The position numbers and the translations under genes are program-made. Below the pieces are notes generated by a model that had not been told where the DNA came from, did not search any database, and was given only the letters and a program-made list of their open reading frames with translations. A stretch of 64,000 nt of DNA from Tetraselmis striata (taxonomy: Eukaryota; Chlorophyta; Chlorodendrophyceae; Chlorodendrales; Chlorodendraceae), in contig VCJN01002741.1 in the NCBI GenBank assembly GCA_006384855.1, forward strand, positions 1-64,000, in the 5' to 3' direction. Position 1 is the stretch's first letter. Each line of letters begins with the position of its first letter. Positions 34,510-62,309 of this stretch are shown here, in pieces.

Positions 34510-36172
34510 TCAGTCCATGCGGCCCTTGAGGGTGCGCGTGATCGTCTTGTCAGGGGTGATGACGTACACGATGGCGCCCCAGCCTGACAGCGCGTCGCGA
34601 TCCTGCCCCGACATCAGGCACTGCGACAGCGTCTCGAACAGCTCCTCCGCCTCCATGTCCGGCCGCCACGTGGACTCGCACATGCCGTAGAGCGAATCGG
34701 GGGCGGTGCCCTGGCGCACAGGAGGGGGCATCAGCCACGTCAGCGCTCCTCCCCACTCATCACCTGCTACACCTCTTTGTCATGAAGTGAGGCAAGCCCT
34801 GACGCCAGCACCGCCTGCCACCGCCGCACCGTTGAATGCGGGAGCAAAACCTACTGATCAGTTCTGCAACATTGCTTAGATAACTCAGTGGCGGACATGT
34901 GGTGCTTTCTGGTGTATGTCGACAACTGTACACCTGTTTCTTGTTTGGGAAAAAAAAACGGCACTTGTAGGAGAGCCAAATGTGTGTCTACGCTGAGCTT
35001 GAGCAGGCGGGCCGGGGCGGGGCGGGGGGGGGGGGGGGGGGGAGGGGGTAGGACAGCATTGCTCACCGCCACCATGAAGTCAGTGGCGGTTTCCATCGCC
35101 CCAATGGTGTCCATCCCGCACAGGTAGGGCGTCCCGTCGCTCTCCAGCCCCGCAATCACAGGCGAGCAGAAGTACGGCCCGAATCTGAAGCAGTGGGGAG
35201 GAGGGCAGTGCGCGGGCCCGTCAGCGCTGGTGCCGTGGATGGCTTTCAAGGGCACGAGGGCGGCCCAGGCTGTCTGGCGGGACGAAATGCGGTGTTTGCA
35301 TGAGGATGCCTGCGAGCGCCCCCCCGCCCCCCCCCCCCCCCCCTTCTCCCCCCCACCCTCCCCCTAAAAATCCCTCACCCCAGCTACCTTACCCCTCAGC
35401 CCCATTCTTGGGCCATCTGGGCCAAGACCAGAAAGTGGGCAGGCAAGGATGCAGCACAGCCAGAGCGAAATCTCCGCCCCCGTGCCTCTCCCCTCTGCCT
35501 CTCCCCTCAGAGATGTGCCCAGGATGGCAGCACCACTTTTAATACAACTCATTCCCCCCTGCCCTGAGAGACATTCCCAGGTCCACAGGCAAGACTCTGT
35601 TTTCCTCCGCGCGGGCAACTGCGCCTTCACGGAAGACCCCCGCTCCCAAGCCTTCCGAGCCTCCCCCGCACACCCATTCCAAGCGCTGTGAAGCAGGGCG
35701 GCCCGCTGCCTTCCCGGGCGCAGATCCGGCCGCCCAACAGCCGCAGATCTGGTACGCGCCAGCGGGACCCAGATCCCAGGGCCGAATCCGCTGGGAGCGG
35801 ATGCTGTGCGCCGAGGGGACGGGCGGCGAGCGGGGGAGGAAAGAGGGGGCCAGGGCGGGGTGTGGGGTCGGCGTACCGTTTCTCGTAGAGCGTGGAGGAG
35901 ACGAGGTGCCCGAAGGTGGAGGGCTTGATGTTGCGCTCCTCCCGCAGCTTGTACATGTTGTGCTTAAACTGGAAGCGCTGGCTCAGCGTCTGCGCGTCCG
36001 TCCCCAGGCCCGCGAGACCCAGGTACAGGTGGTCGTGGATCTTGTACACCTTCTTGTAGTCCGTGGCCAGTGTCTGGAACTGCACGCCCAGCCGCAGGTC
36101 GGAGCCGATGGCAACGCAGTTCTTGCCGGCCATCGCCACGATGGCCGCGCCGTTCATCTCAAAGATCGACAT
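34510..36172 (-). CDS. PSMB3: 20S proteasome subunit beta type-3
   Basis: Three exons with consistent phases: 35877-36172, 35067-35184 and 34510-34710 (stop TGA), giving 204 residues, about the usual length for beta-3. It begins [20 protein letters not shown], continues [20 protein letters not shown], and after the first junction reads [20 protein letters not shown]; the last exon has LYGMCESTW and ends RTLKGRMD. Beta-3 is a non-catalytic member of the beta ring and has no Thr1 nucleophile, consistent with the absence of a propeptide-Thr junction here. The frame is open upstream of the chosen ATG to about 36505, but homology starts at MSIFEMNG, so 36172 is preferred. Intron 2 starts with GTGAGC and has a poly-C run within 20 nt of the donor. 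A housekeeping gene that should be constitutively expressed. Confidence 0.95.
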
Positions 36173-37315
36173 CCTGCGGCTCCCCCTCCCGGTCCCTGCA
36201 GCGGCGTGTGCTTGCCTGCGAGGAGATGGCACTGTCTTCTCAGATACACACGGAAGCTGCTGCTGTGATTGTGGCTGAGTGCTGCCGGTCGCTGCTCGTG
36301 TGGGCGTGCTGGCGCCTAGAGCGCTGGCCTGATCGGGCTGGTCCTGAGCGAGCACCAGCTTAGTCGCTGCTACAGGAGTGTACCCCGTACCGCAATCCGA
36401 CTGCTCACTGGTGTAGTAGCGGTTCAGGCGACTACGGGAACTACTGCGCGCGAGGCAGGTCAGGCGGGCAGTGACGATGTTGGCTGACTTTCCTGACAAA
36501 ATCACGATGGAGCAGTGCTAGTTACGTACCGAATTAAATATGTGTATTTACTGTGCCTCATTAGTCGATAGTAAATTATATTTATTGTTTTTTCTTTCAA
36601 ATTGCGCATTCAGATGACTGGTTCATCAGAGCGTCTCTGTAGCGACTGGCCCGGGCAACGGGCAGGATAAGAATTATATGCACTACCGGCTGTACGGCTT
36701 CCCACTCGAATAAAATACCGCCCGCATGATCCATCTGATGATACATATACCCGTGCTCGCCGTACTCGTACATGAAGCTTGGCTGTAGAGCAATTTAAGC
36801 AGCTCTACTGCTGACGATGATGCCACACAAATATAACCAGTGCAGCTTGGACAGTCTGTCGTCATTTTAATGCCATGCCATCTGCTGCGACAAGGGCAAT
36901 TGAGTAGGCCTCCCATCACAACATACTCATACAGACCGTGTCACACAGTCATCCAATGATTTGTCTCTAAAATTTTTCATATGAATTGATAAATGAAACG
37001 AAAAGAGTCCCTTGCAGGTACAACTTCTCTATATATACAAATGTATGTTTCTTATTAAATGGACCGGTATTACTGCAAGCCTGCAGCAAATGACCGCTTC
37101 CCGCAGCCAACAGAGCACCGATGGTAGACAATGGTGCTACTATCGCATGCACGGTTGTCGCACGTTGCGACAGGTGGCTGGTACGTCTTGGCTGTCAATG
37201 TTTGGCACTGTTTATTCCGATGAATATAGTCGCCAGTGGAAGCTTCTGTCGCCGCCACGTAGAAGCGTTGTGGCGACGAGTTGCAACACCTGTGGAGAGC
37301 AAGCACCGAGGGTGG
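36173..37315. other. Upstream region of PSMB3, no gene seen
   Basis: The first 330 bp stays open in the PSMB3 frame and may be 5' leader. From about 36520 the sequence is AT-rich with no convincing frame. Short ORFs at 36683-36919 and 37012-37479 have no motif and no repeat partner in the window. Confidence 0.4.
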
Positions 37316-50133: not shown

Positions 50134-50499
50134 GTAATGGCGGTTTGTGCTAAGTAATTCGTAGGGGTGGACCATGCAGCGCAGGTAGGGGGCGGTATAA
50201 ATGAGGCCGGGCACATATACTACTGCTCCACGAAACGACACTGTCGCACGTGTAGTTGAATAGACCCCCCCGCCCCCCCCCCCCCCCCACCCCCCGCCGG
50301 GTCGGCCCGCCGACCGCCACGGCATGTAATATCTGTCATGCATCGCCGGGGTATGTGTGAGTGGATGCCCCGCCGCCACACCCCCCCCCCCCCCCATTTA
50401 CACTTGTGCACTCTTTTGGGCTGGTTTCGGAACAGTACATGTACGTATGTATATACATACAATGGAACGTAGGACCTGCGCGGAAAGAGGCGGGGCTGG

Positions 50500-51730
50500 C
50501 GGAGTGCGTTGGGGGTGCGTAGAGTAGCGTGTTGGTGAGATTCGGGGTGCATCGGACGCCGGATGCCCATCCACCCAGCGTAAAAGACGCGTACGTAATA
50601 TTCACAATGTATATATTCACACGCAAATGTGTGAGAACCGGACATTCCGTGCCGGATGGGTGGGAATACGGCGTCCGATGCAGCCAAAACCCCAGCAACA
50701 CGCTATTCGATGCACCGCCTATGCACTCCGCGAGCACCGCCTCATTCTCTGTCGATTTCGAAAACGCCTTCACATTATCCACCGCTAATTGCAATTGCCA
50801 CCGTGTAATGTTGTCACGATGTGCGCACACAACAACACTTACTACCGGTTCCGACGCGGATGGAGGCGGGGCTTGCGGAGTGCGTTGGGGGTAGGTGCGT
50901 AGAGCAGCGTGCTGCAAATAATTGGGGTGCATCGGACGCCGGATGCCCATCCACCCGGCGTAAAAGACGCGTAGTATTCACACTATATTAACACACAAAT
51001 GTGTGAAAACCGGACATTCCGTGCCGGATGGGTGGGAATACGGCCTCCGATGCAGCCAAAACCCCAGCAACACGCTATTCGATGCACCGCCAATGCACTC
51101 CGCCAGCACCGCCTCATTCTTTGTCGATTTCGATAACGCCTTCACATTATCCACCGCTAATTGCAATTGCCACCGTGTAATGTTGTCACGATGTGCGCAC
51201 ACAACAACACTTACTATCGGTTCCGACGCGGATGGAGGCGGGGCTTGCGGAGTGCGTTGGGGGTGCGTAGAGTAGCGTGCTGCAAATAATTGGGGTGCAT
51301 CGGACGCCGGATGCCCATCCACCCGGCATAAAAGACGCGTACGTAGTATTCACACTATATTAACACACAAATGTGTGAGAACCGGACATTCCGTGCCGGA
51401 TGGATGGGAATACGGCGTCCGATGCAGCCAAAACCCCAGCAACACGCTATTCGATGCACCGCCAATGCACTCCGCCAGCACCGCCTCATTCTTTGTCGAT
51501 TTCGAAAACGCCTTCACATTATCAACCGCTAATTGCAATTGCCACCGTGTAATGTTGTCACGATGTGCGCACACAACAACACTTACTACCGGTTCCGACG
51601 CGGATGGAGGCAGGGCTTGCTAGGTGCATTGGCGGTGCGTAGAGTAGCGTGCTGTAAATACTTGGGGTGCATCGGACGCCGGATGCCCATCCACCCGGCG
51701 TAAAAGACGCGTAGTATTCACACTATATTA
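50500..51730. repeat. 370-bp satellite inside the transposon, about 3.3 copies
   Basis: The anchor GCCGGATGCCCATCCACCC occurs at about 50560, 50938, 51308 and 51678, a period of about 370 bp. Each unit also has CAAATGTGTGAGAACCGGAC, GCAATTGCCACCGTGTAATG and ACCGGTTCCGACGCGGATGG. Within a unit, GCATCGGACGCCGGATGCCC...CACCCGGC is followed about 65 nt later by its imperfect inverse (GCCGGATGGGTGGG...ACGGCGTCCGATGC), so each unit can form a long hairpin. The copies are over 90 percent alike by eye. Confidence 0.9.
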
Positions 51731-52640
51731 ACACACAAATGTGTGAAAACCGGACATTCCGTGCCGGATGGATGGGAATACGGCGTCTGATGCAGCCAAA
51801 ACCCCAGCAACACGCTATTCTATGCACCGCCAATGCACTCCATCCGCAACCCCCGCCTCATTCCCAGTCGTACGTGCTTGTGCACACGCACGGAATGCTT
51901 GCACTGCTCCGAAACCACTGTCACATACCCCGCTCATTGGGTACCGATTGCGGCGCATGCACGGCTAGATATTTGTTTACATAAACCGGGGGGGGGGGGG
52001 GGCACAGTGTCCCGCTACTCACCCTGCATTGGATTAGATAGGGCGACGATTGCAAACAAGACGAGGAGCGAGGCGCGAATGAACTGCTCCGAAACCACGC
52101 GATGTGCCCGGTGACCTCCATATCCAGCACGTCCACCGATGAAAGTAATAAGGACAGGACCCCCCCGCCCCCCCCCACCCGCCAAAGTGGAGGAAGTGTA
52201 GGAGTACAACCGGAGCATGACGTGATCCATTGTCGCTTATTTACAAGCACGGGCGGTCCTGCCAGACCCGATCGTCTACGGCCGATATAATATTCACACT
52301 ATATTAACATCGGTGCACACCGCCGCACAACGCTGCGCGCGCACATTCGTCGCGCACATATACGCGCGCCCTACCGCACATATTATCCCGGATTCACTCG
52401 GTGAAACCGCGTATTCATTACGCCGTGCTACTTCAACAATAATAAACATTGCGAAATTACACCGACACAATGCCGCACCGACTAGCTCTTGACAATACGT
52501 GCATATAAATAGTAGTGGCGCGCTGCTCCTCGCCTCCGATGTGTCGTTGACTGCTGCGGAAGGCGGTCGTCGACTGGGTGTTAATTTCTCCACCTCGGCC
52601 GCCCCCCCCCCCCCCCCCCCCCCTTCACCGCTCACAGCGC

Positions 52641-57040: not shown

Positions 57041-58143
57041 GCCAAAACAAGACCGCATGACACACGTCAGTCAACGCAGTCACGCATGATCGGCTTGCTC
57101 GCGAGTAGGCACGCGCATCACAGAACCTGTACAATTTTGAGTCGGGTAGTCTAGCGAGTCGGCGTAGCGAAACAAACAGTCGCTAGCAGCGTATGGTTGA
57201 TAAATGAAATACGAGGAATGGCGTGCAGGTGCGCTGATACCCTGTCCGCTTGCCGCCCCCCACCCCCCCCCCCCCCCCCCCCCTCCGCCCCTGTAGGTAC
57301 CCCCCCTCTCCGCACCGAGCTGGCGGCGGTTCTGCCTAAGGTACGTGGAGCTGTGACACACGACGGTCTGTGGCCTGTTGCCTATCTGCGACTCGACAAA
57401 GTAATGTGGCGGGCGAGAGCATAATACATAGGTGTTTCGCAGTCCCGGCACGTCGTGTCTATCGAGGCAGGGCTCTCGGCGCCTGAAATCGGCTATGATA
57501 GCGGCGCCAGTGTCCCGACTTCCAACTAGCGGCCAGCCTGCAGCGCTATGCTCCATCCAACGTCCTCATCCGCGATTAGTTTTCTGTGCCTGCGACACCA
57601 TAACCTGGGAACTCTAGCCACCGGGGCTAGCTATGTGTACTTGTGCCGCTTCGCCATCATCCGGCGGCAGCATTGGCGCATGGAGACGCTGTCGCCTTAC
57701 CAACGGCAGTACTACTCTTACTGCCGCTGCCACTTGGCGTGAACAGTCGGCAGCGCAGGCATTCTACGGGACGGCGCTTATATCCCGGCCGGGCAGATGT
57801 TTTCCCGGCCTGGAGCGACCCAGCAGCGATGCACACTTGTGATCTCCCTGTTGACGGCCTATCGCTACATATACTCAACCTTTTAAAAGCAGAGAAGGGC
57901 GCTTAAGTGCGGCTGCGTGCGAAGGACTCGCGCAGCACCTGGCATCCCACGACAGAATATGACTGGTTATGGTAAATCATACACTAGTACACAAATAATA
58001 ATGCTACAGTATTGCATCTATTTCATGTACGATATGGTGTCTGCCACCCTGCGATGAGGTATCCCGAGAATACTGAGACTGACTGCTTTTTCCCTCTCTG
58101 CAGGACTTCTTATTGAATCTATTCAACTCAGCAGCCAGCGGCC
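57041..58143. other. Region upstream of the sulfotransferase gene
   Basis: A poly-C tract (about 57257-57282) is followed by a CTGTAG acceptor-like site and a short open block ending in a GTACGTG donor-like site (57297-57340), possibly an isolated exon or an exon of a 5' leader. The 194-bp repeat S (57570-57763) lies here. A CTCTCTGCAG at about 58094-58103 could be the acceptor of a 5' untranslated intron just ahead of the sulfotransferase start. No separate gene supported. Confidence 0.4.
57570..57763. repeat. Repeat S, copy 1
   Basis: 194 bp, same orientation and nearly identical (two adjacent differences seen) to 60969-61162 inside the viral remnant. It contains a hairpin CTAGCC-ACCGG-GGCTAG. 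Similarity ends abruptly at both sides. Confidence 0.9.
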
Positions 58144-60622: not shown

Positions 60623-60870
60623 GACCGCGAGGCACATTAGTACTGCCTCCATTAGTACTATCACCGAGCAGAGGTCAGGCGCTAATAGCATGATCATACA
60701 TCAGTGCTGGCACATATCATGGCGCAATCAAAATCAAAGGACATGTATTCATGCAATGCGGAGAATGCATGTGTATGTTTGCAGATGCATTGTTCATCGG
60801 TGCAAATTGACGAGTAGTTGCGGCATGTACCGGGGGCTTGGGCGTTGCACCATTGTTCAGAGAGAGGTAT
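60623..60870. repeat. 248-bp direct repeat R, left copy, flanking the viral remnant
   Basis: As far as I can see identical base for base to 62062-62309, offset exactly 1439. It starts GACCGCGAGGCACATTAG and ends AGAGAGAGGTAT. It carries a CRESS-origin-like stem-loop near its left end. It may be terminal redundancy of an integrated circular genome, or a target-site duplication of host DNA. Confidence 0.92.
60629..60649 (+). promoter_or_regulatory. Candidate rolling-circle origin stem-loop, left
   Basis: A perfect 6-bp stem GAGGCA/TGCCTC encloses exactly nine bases, CATTAGTAC. CRESS-DNA virus origins present a nonanucleotide of consensus NANTATTAC in such a loop; this loop differs from it at one position (G for T at base 6). 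CATTAGTACT is repeated once more directly after the stem. Same structure at 62068-62088. Shape, loop length and proximity to a Rep gene all fit; the mismatch keeps it a candidate. Confidence 0.5.
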
Positions 60871-60968
60871 CCCTACGTCTCATATGAACTCTATTTTACC
60901 GATTCTACCGACACAGGATCCGTCAACTGGCAGGCCAACGTCGGCGGCGGAGCGACACCTATCTCCAA
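60871..60968 (+). pseudogene. Capsid-like fragment, plus strand (endogenous CRESS virus)
   Basis: 98 bp between repeat R and repeat S. One plus frame reads YELYFTDSTDTGSVNW followed by GGGATPISN and is cut off by repeat S. The last part is nearly the same, at DNA and protein level, as the start of the minus-strand capsid-like frame (GGCGGCGGAGCGACACC at about 60948 against its reverse complement near 61420). So two pieces related to the same gene lie in opposite orientation. Beta-strand-like, Ser/Thr/Gly-rich composition suits a capsid jelly roll but is not diagnostic. Confidence 0.4.
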
Positions 60969-61162
60969 CCGCGATTAGTTTTCTGTGCCTGCGACACCAT
61001 AACCTGGGAACTCTAGCCACCGGGGCTAGCTATGTGTACTTGTGCCGCTTCGCCATCATCCGGCGGCAGCATTGGCAGATGGAGACGCTGTCGCCTTACC
61101 AACGGCAGTACTACTCTTACTGCCGCTGCCACTTGGCGTGAACAGTCGGCAGCGCAGGCATT
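60969..61162. repeat. Repeat S, copy 2 (inside the viral remnant)
   Basis: Counterpart of 57570-57763 (offset 3399). It separates the two capsid-like fragments and replaces the C-terminal part of the minus-strand one. The hairpin CTAGCC-ACCGG-GGCTAG is present here too. Confidence 0.9.
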
Positions 61163-61470
61163 GCGAGAATGGAGTTCTGGCCCGGTGCGACGTCGTCAGC
61201 GAACTGAACGAGCTGTACTTGCACACGTGTGGGAGCCTGCGTAGGTGAGTAGAACGCGAACTTAGCGTTGACTGATTCTAGGAATGACTTGGCCCCTGGG
61301 AATGCTCCGGAGTTCGACACTGTCGAGCCGGAACTGTACTCGGAATGGTCGAGGTACGTAGGATAGTATTGCACTGCCTTGTTGAGGGTGGTGGCCACGC
61401 CGGGACTTTCGTGGTCGGAGATGGGTGTCGCTCCGCCGCCACCCTCTGAGTACCTCTGAGCCAAAAAGGC
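61163..61470 (-). pseudogene. Capsid-like fragment, minus strand (endogenous CRESS virus)
   Basis: About 102 codons open on the minus strand after a TAA at 61471-61473. There is no ATG at the start, so the N-terminus, including any basic DNA-binding arm, is missing. Composition and the pattern NAKFAFYSPTQAP followed by VQLVQFADDVAPG look like consecutive beta strands of a CRESS-virus jelly-roll capsid. It is divergent from the Rep gene, with only about 33 bp between them, and is truncated by repeat S. Ambisense Rep/capsid arrangement is common in CRESS-DNA viruses. Assignment is by pattern and context, not by a database match. Confidence 0.5.
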
Positions 61471-61503
61471 TTAAAAGATCTCCACAGAGAACTAAAGTAC
61501 AAC

Positions 61504-62079
61504 ATGGCCGAGAAGTATAAGACCAGGTTTTTCGTGGTCACCAACTGGAACCTCGATACCGACTACAATGCCTTGATCGAGAAGGGACAGATCCGTTATG
61601 TCATGCACGGACGCGAGACTTGTCCCGAGACAGGGAAACTACACGATCAGTGCGACGTGTATTTTCACAACCAGCGGCAGACCTCTTAGAGAGCTCTCAA
61701 CGATATCGGCAACATGTTCGGTCCTATTCATTGTTATGCAGAGGCAATGCGCGGTACCCTGCGCCAGAACGACGCTTACTGCAGTAAGGAGGATGCGTAC
61801 AACCACGTCGGACTCAAGCCCTCCCCTGGGGCGCGCAGAGACATTGAAGAAGTGAAGGACGAGATCCTCGCCGGAAACATCACTTCGGACGAGGTATGCT
61901 TGGCTAATCCCGAGTTCCACCACAAGTATGGTCGCACCCTCGATCGTATAGAGGCCATCGCTCTACGTAAGCGATTCCGTACATAGATGACAAAGGGCAT
62001 TTGGTACACCGGCCCCACCGCAAGTGGCAAGAGCCACAAGGTTTTCGATGGATTCGATCCCGACCGCGAGGCACATTAG
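61504..62079 (+). pseudogene. Endogenous CRESS-DNA virus Rep remnant
   Basis: One frame from ATG 61504 carries the HUH endonuclease motifs in order: motif I-like FFVVTNW (about 61528), motif II HDQ (61642-61650) and motif III YCSK (61777-61788). They are followed by a superfamily 3 helicase Walker A, GPTASGKS (62011-62034). The frame is broken by TAG at 61687-61689 and TAG at 61984-61986, then runs into repeat R and stops at a third TAG (62077-62079). Walker B, motif C and the arginine finger are absent, so roughly the last third of a normal Rep is lost. Rep of Cressdnaviricota nicks the origin and starts rolling-circle replication; this copy cannot encode an intact enzyme. The HUH plus helicase order is diagnostic of CRESS Rep; genus or family cannot be told. 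Confidence 0.88.
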
Positions 62080-62309
62080 TACTGCCTCCATTAGTACTAT
62101 CACCGAGCAGAGGTCAGGCGCTAATAGCATGATCATACATCAGTGCTGGCACATATCATGGCGCAATCAAAATCAAAGGACATGTATTCATGCAATGCGG
62201 AGAATGCATGTGTATGTTTGCAGATGCATTGTTCATCGGTGCAAATTGACGAGTAGTTGCGGCATGTACCGGGGGCTTGGGCGTTGCACCATTGTTCAGA
62301 GAGAGGTAT
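62062..62309. repeat. 248-bp direct repeat R, right copy
   Basis: Identical to 60623-60870. Its left edge coincides with the point where the Rep frame loses similarity to Rep proteins. A minus-strand open frame (62156-62554) enters it from the right. Confidence 0.92.
62068..62088 (+). promoter_or_regulatory. Candidate rolling-circle origin stem-loop, right
   Basis: Second copy of the GAGGCA/TGCCTC stem with loop CATTAGTAC, 1439 bp from the first. If the element was a circle, the two copies are the same origin present at both ends of a slightly more than unit-length insert. Confidence 0.5.

Follow-up and report, generated by a model that had tools for sequence, protein, structure and literature searches.

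The window analysed here is a stretch of 64,000 nucleotides from the green flagellate Tetraselmis striata (contig VCJN01002741.1, positions 1 to 64,000) and forms part of C2211, one of 2,903 contigs that make up the 224,097,584 bases of the genome searched. Towards its right-hand end two direct repeats of 248 bp, R1 (60623-60870) and R2 (62062-62309), start 1439 bp apart and are 100% identical, just as the original prediction described them. Base-by-base comparison gives the order between the repeats as capsid (+), host patch, capsid (-) and Rep (+), and all 1,687 bases of 60623-62309 are attributed to the repeat sequence R, to virus, or to one nearby host template. The segments are listed below; identities of the viral pieces refer to two viral units on contig C660, which are described later.

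60623..60870 (+): R1, first copy of the apparent host sequence; its terminal 3 bases (TAT) are common to the adjoining viral piece
60868..60970 (+): capsid-gene piece in the sense of Rep; 100/103 bases as in C660 unit 2
60969..61162 (+): host patch; in the alignment of 60966-61162, 194/197 bases as in window 57567-57763
61161..61440 (-): capsid-gene piece in the sense opposite to Rep; 269/280 bases as in C660 unit 1
61441..62064 (+): origin and Rep piece; it opens at the expected Rep nick site, takes in the right arm of the origin hairpin and continues into Rep; 613/624 bases as in C660 unit 2
62062..62309 (+): R2, second copy of R; its initial 3 bases (GAC) are common to the adjoining viral piece
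57567..57763 (+): host template from which the patch was copied, lying 2.9 kb upstream of R1

The insert sits inside the 147,579-bp contig C2211 with host DNA on both sides. Elsewhere in the window there is a tandem repeat at 50479-51841 (372-bp unit, 3.7 copies, 93% matches), and a proteasome subunit frame at 35630-36505 (-) is the sole Pfam match (PF00227, 4e-20) among ten long frames scanned. Scans of the window for tRNA and Rfam families gave no matches.

The Rep frame begins with the ATG at 61504 (+) and runs for 188 codons, interrupted by two TAG stops (61687-61689 and 61984-61986) and truncated by R2 at 62061-62064. The three resulting pieces carry FVVTNWN, HDQ and YCSKE in this order, followed by the Walker A sequence GPTASGKS, so that HUH rolling-circle motifs I-III and the superfamily 3 Walker A motif are all present, as had been predicted. 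Reading TAG, the codon of both stops, as an amino acid was considered and set aside, since the standard code leaves related frames elsewhere in this genome open. The short pieces from the window matched no Rep or capsid family in Pfam or PHROGs. In a search of the PDB the first Rep piece gave one match at chance level and the middle piece four weak ones (E 0.02-0.36), all named Rep or replicase; the middle piece had no match among phage records and occurs at six places in the genome, its own included. The CRESS similarity that the original prediction expected of the Rep frame was found by way of its fuller relative on C660.

This contig (L018:5820-9901 and L019:1-999) carries two tandem viral units with Rep starts 2617 bp apart, and the viral unit length is estimated from the sequence at about 2.6 kb. 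The Rep and capsid genes are both on the + strand, in the same sense. In unit 1 a capsid frame of 406 residues is open and Rep is broken; in unit 2 a Rep frame of 295 residues is open and the capsid gene is broken. The open Rep frame, which has eight matches on five contigs, contains PF00910 at 5.9e-7, above the cut-off, and PF02407 at 0.0052, below it, and matches the solved Rep 7lar, which we take to be that of porcine circovirus 2, at 1.8e-21. Its relatives number 622 at E 0.001 or better. The two nearest, of which one is 96% identical over 80% of the Rep and the other 100% over 73%, bear Tetstr1 names, presumably those of Tetraselmis striata gene models; one of the Tetraselmis models, P0001 (TSEL_043129), is the 96% identical protein. 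Among the best 120 of the 622, the next eight Reps after these two are 60-66% identical and come from contigs of 1.1-2.8 kb.

The two capsid pieces of the window, 61163-61440 (-) and 60868-60970 (+), both match the open 406-residue frame, the match of the latter spanning 60868-60993 with one TAG. The prediction of capsid-like frames is thereby borne out as to their identity; however, within the region taken for capsid some 190 bp (60969-61162) are host DNA. Likewise the predicted orientation opposite to Rep applies to 61161-61440 (-) but not to 60868-60970 (+), which has the sense of Rep. The inverted piece was found at nine places in the genome at E 1 or better, its own included; the weakest match, at E 0.52, falls on the host template of the patch. 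The open C660 capsid frame has 14 matches on six contigs of the genome, and 12 relatives among the 7,993 candidates that were scored. The best of these is 77% identical, and the longest contig that bears it measures 2,609 nt. The frame matched nothing in Pfam. A structure model of the 77%-identical relative P0121 (mean pLDDT 67) matched satellite tobacco necrosis virus (STNV) among solved structures at E 7.8e-5, with 2 of 1,216 matches passing 0.001, and its best match among viral models was a Cressdnaviricota capsid at E 2.9e-16. On this model the 406-residue frame belongs to a family predicted to be a jelly-roll capsid protein of CRESS type.

Further copies differ in completeness and in their Rep genes. 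The one on C1460 is a fragment running from mid-Rep to mid-capsid. On C2526 (L021:3847-6243) the same capsid gene and the same ends are found with the Rep and origin region replaced by 836 bp encoding another CRESS Rep, and this copy is a natural recombinant. Its Rep piece was not recognised by Pfam and gave six PDB matches at E 0.22 or worse, none of them a Rep; the best longer relative of this Rep, 66% identical, carries PF02407. A further Rep type occurs in broken frames on C2672 (L059:2-1092; PF00910, 7e-5), which has its own TAGTATTAC hairpin with a 10-bp stem, beside a left end that agrees with the C660 left end at 85% of positions over 163 bp. C2500 (L023:3765-4358) holds a diverged capsid fragment, 40% identical to residues 170-349 of the C660 capsid, and frames judged by eye to be reverse-transcriptase-like lie near it. 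IMG/VR scans gave no confirmed relative.

The HUH motifs, the origin hairpin on C660, the jelly-roll capsid modelled for a relative and the host DNA on both sides mark the sequence as an endogenous virus of the Cressdnaviricota. With the Rep and capsid matches given above, this confirms the predicted endogenous CRESS-DNA virus in a flagellated alga. In the Circoviridae the Rep and capsid genes lie in opposite senses, an arrangement that C660, with both on the + strand, does not share.

A genome search with scoring of the best candidates found R at two places in the 224 Mb, both at this locus, which excludes chance as the source of the repeat pair and also excludes a dispersed host repeat. Compared with six loci of the virus and with the adjoining stretch of contig, R gave no match longer than 21 bases, and R as viral sequence was ruled out. 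Since R is absent from the viral copies examined and was found nowhere else in the genome, it appears to be duplicated host DNA, single-copy apart from the duplication. The original prediction had left two models, R as an origin-containing terminal redundancy of the virus or as host sequence duplicated on insertion; the former fails on these searches and the latter fits, with the duplication as part of a complex repair event. No long direct flank duplication is present at four other viral loci, C660, C2526, C1988 and C1460 (C2500, C2672 and C554 fell outside this test). This rules out a regular target-site duplication of the virus and makes the duplication of R a property of this single event. 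The flanks of C1988 share a diverged inverted match of 355 bp (73.5%).

The host patch is 98.5% identical to its source; patch and source both lie on C2211, and the genome search turned up this sequence nowhere else. As R and the patch each occur at two places, all in this stretch of C2211, the window element is a scrambled viral composite that was most simply assembled at this very place. R1 and R2 differ at 0/248 positions and the patch differs from its source at 3/197, two of them adjacent and one at a join; the viral pieces differ from C660 at 25/1,007. Judged against these viral differences the insertion looks recent, and the identity of the two R copies itself suggests a recent event. 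Gene conversion between R1 and R2 could also have kept them identical, and the 25 differences to C660 will mostly be viral strain differences or changes in C660.

Four of the five junctions between segments have 2-3 bp in common: TAT between R1 and capsid (+), CC between capsid (+) and the host patch (six bases with one mismatch on a loose reading), TT between the patch and capsid (-), and GAC between Rep and R2. The remaining junction, between capsid (-) and Rep, is blunt. The shared bases number 3, 2, 2, 0 and 3 in the order of the map. Of 40,000 random sets, 0.9% reached a sum of at least 10, and 0.3% had two or more shared bases at no fewer than four junctions.

At the junction that is blunt, TAATATT is followed in the viral source by ACCCTCTGAG, and the window piece begins at the A that comes after TAATATT (61441). 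The start of the Rep piece therefore coincides exactly with TAATATT^AC, where Rep would be expected to nick the origin hairpin of C660 unit 2; CRESS Reps of this type cut, we assume, at this position. This hairpin presents the nonanucleotide TAATATTAC on a perfect 9-bp stem, and its fold has a z of -4.2; of 200 shuffled sequences, one folded equally well. On C660 the loop of the unit 1 hairpin contains additional bases, and the C1988 hairpin is degenerate. No hairpin of this kind with a stem of at least 7 occurs in the window, where only the part from the nick onward is present. The coincidence concerns one of the six viral ends at the locus, and the chance of one exact nick match with six ends in a 2,617-bp unit is 0.0023, a value that is post hoc because other landmarks would likewise have drawn attention. 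At C660, C2526, C1988 and C1460 every mapped end lies away from the nick site.

From the segment map, the identities, the lack of R in the viral copies, the end at the expected nick site and the microhomologies, all of which are observed, we infer that the locus is probably the scar of one error-prone repair of a double-strand break, with fragments of a replicating CRESS virus as filler. Two nicks on opposite strands, about 248 bp apart, would have produced a break with long overhangs, and filling in of both overhangs would have doubled the host stretch into R1 and R2. Before sealing, the ends may have captured a viral replication intermediate whose first base, at 61441, is the 5' end that a Rep nick would leave. 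Two oppositely oriented pieces of the capsid gene may have come in with it, as well as a copy made from host DNA some 3 kb distant. Most joins would then have been made through 2-3 bp of microhomology by end joining of polymerase-theta or synthesis-dependent type. A filled-in staggered break thus accounts for R, and end joining with filler for the rest of the insert; the features looked for in such repair, a duplicated flank of apparently single-copy host DNA and junctions with microhomology and templated filler, are those found. The end exactly at the nick points to a replication intermediate cut by Rep as one possible filler. Integration of CRESS viruses is described as likely Rep-mediated, with a citation, in the available part of one study (PMC7493932). 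Against the break-repair reading, 248 bp is a considerable length for an overhang to be filled in.

The same break repair might have copied its viral pieces from endogenous copies resident in the nucleus rather than from replicating virus. Chromosomal templates were in use, as the host patch indicates; endogenous copies 92-98% identical exist, and the two stops in the Rep piece would allow an origin from a resident dead copy. An end exactly at the nick site, however, is unexpected from a chromosomal template, and none of the copies examined is identical to the window pieces. We consider this source unlikely.

A succession of several events would yield an identical map, which by itself does not fix the order of the joins. 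A viral insertion, a later templated patch and a still later duplication of R are nevertheless very unlikely as separate events, because with 0/248 differences in R and 3/197 in the patch every one of these steps would need to be recent.

Recombination could also give R-insert-R, the expected product if an extrachromosomal circle of 1,439 bp with R and the viral pieces had entered by homologous recombination at R. This is highly improbable, as R, the three viral pieces and the host patch would all have had to be on one circle beforehand, and no trace of such a circle was seen. An assembly artefact, for which the 100% identity of the R copies would speak, is extremely improbable: unique sequence flanks each copy within the 147,579-bp contig and the internal junctions would need to be false too. 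The circular viral DNA of about 1.44 kb that the original prediction saw integrated as slightly more than one unit, with R as its terminal redundancy, explains the direct repeats around Rep and capsid frames but can practically be discarded, like any head-to-tail integration of more than one unit, since the unit is about 2.6 kb against a spacing of 1439, R is absent from the viral copies examined, and the insert is rearranged and composite, with host DNA within it and capsid pieces inverted relative to each other.

Besides the break-repair scar, which we prefer for the window, the fuller copies may point to another mode of entry. Both C660 units and the C2526 copy have left ends reading ACGGGTACC then YYAGGCGTTACG and right ends reading GGTCTAN then ACGGGTACC. 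Allowing up to 3 mismatches, the left-end pattern occurs at four sites genome-wide (C660 twice, C2526, C2672) and the right-end pattern at four (C660 twice, C2526, C554); a reversed control pattern occurs at none. The left end at C2672:1059-1092 reads CGGGTACC. The right end at C554:304476-304510 belongs to a contig of which just 41 bp match the virus and whose ORF list has no evident viral gene, which speaks against fixed ends. So do the diverged left end and degenerate right end of C1988, and the C1460 fragment, which has no such ends. The C660 units are separated by a 51-bp spacer between two ACGGGTACC copies. ACGGGTACC is either viral sequence at both ends or target sequence with GTAC as a 4-bp duplication. 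The C660 and C2526 ends at ACGGGTACC, the right end on C554, the left end on C2672 and the variation of the Rep module between copies lead to a tentative and rather doubtful proposal, that one CRESS lineage enters by two routes, as nick-start fragments at breaks in the manner of T-DNA and as whole genomes of about 2.6 kb at a fixed site. If true, these would be proviruses that integrate site-specifically and swap modules; having no integrase gene of their own, they would rely on a recombinase or nuclease of the host.

A two-gene CRESS lineage is now placed in a green flagellate. The scar itself is unusually readable, with each base assigned and one end on the expected Rep nick, and it therefore bears on whether Rep-nicked DNA enters host chromosomes. 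In T-DNA integration a strand nicked by an HUH-type enzyme keeps its 5' end exactly, the other end is ragged, and filler appears at the joins. The window locus resembles this in its 5' end exactly at the expected nick and its filler at joins; it differs in having no transfer machinery and an exact end in one fragment only.

Repair-mediated capture of nearby chromosomal DNA is described in the part of PMC2671141 available to us, and duplications at breaks with overhangs, with patch-mediated repair in rice cited, in that of PMC8355091. Short linked duplications at repaired breaks and templated inserts are common to those cases and to the window. In contrast, viral pieces are among the fillers here, and R, at 248 bp, exceeds the small duplications treated in that part of PMC8355091.

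The literature searched, partial for each source, holds no earlier report of a two-gene CRESS lineage in a green flagellate that we could find, and the available text of PMC10675990, PMC10581178, PMC10120064, PMC7493932, PMC5014472, PMC8355091, PMC7758297 and PMC2671141 has no endogenous CRESS sequence in Tetraselmis. CRESS viruses associated with the green seaweed Ulva are described, in the excerpts at hand, as not endogenous (PMC10581178); the likeness lies in the association of CRESS viruses with a green alga. The endogenous geminiviral sequences of yam, as presented in the accessible part of their report, consist of tandemly arranged units that measure about 2.6 kb and carry a TAATATTAC hairpin (PMC5014472), and are similar in both respects to the copies in this genome. 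However, the yam units so described have no detectable coat protein gene, whereas Rep and capsid are both present here, in the same sense. Endogenous CRESS viruses of Entamoeba and Giardia (Naryaviridae and others) include whole and tandem integrations, according to the portion of that study available (PMC7493932). The resemblance lies in CRESS Rep and capsid genes within a protist genome; the present host, unlike those, is a green alga, and the window copy is a scrambled composite between stretches of apparently duplicated host DNA.
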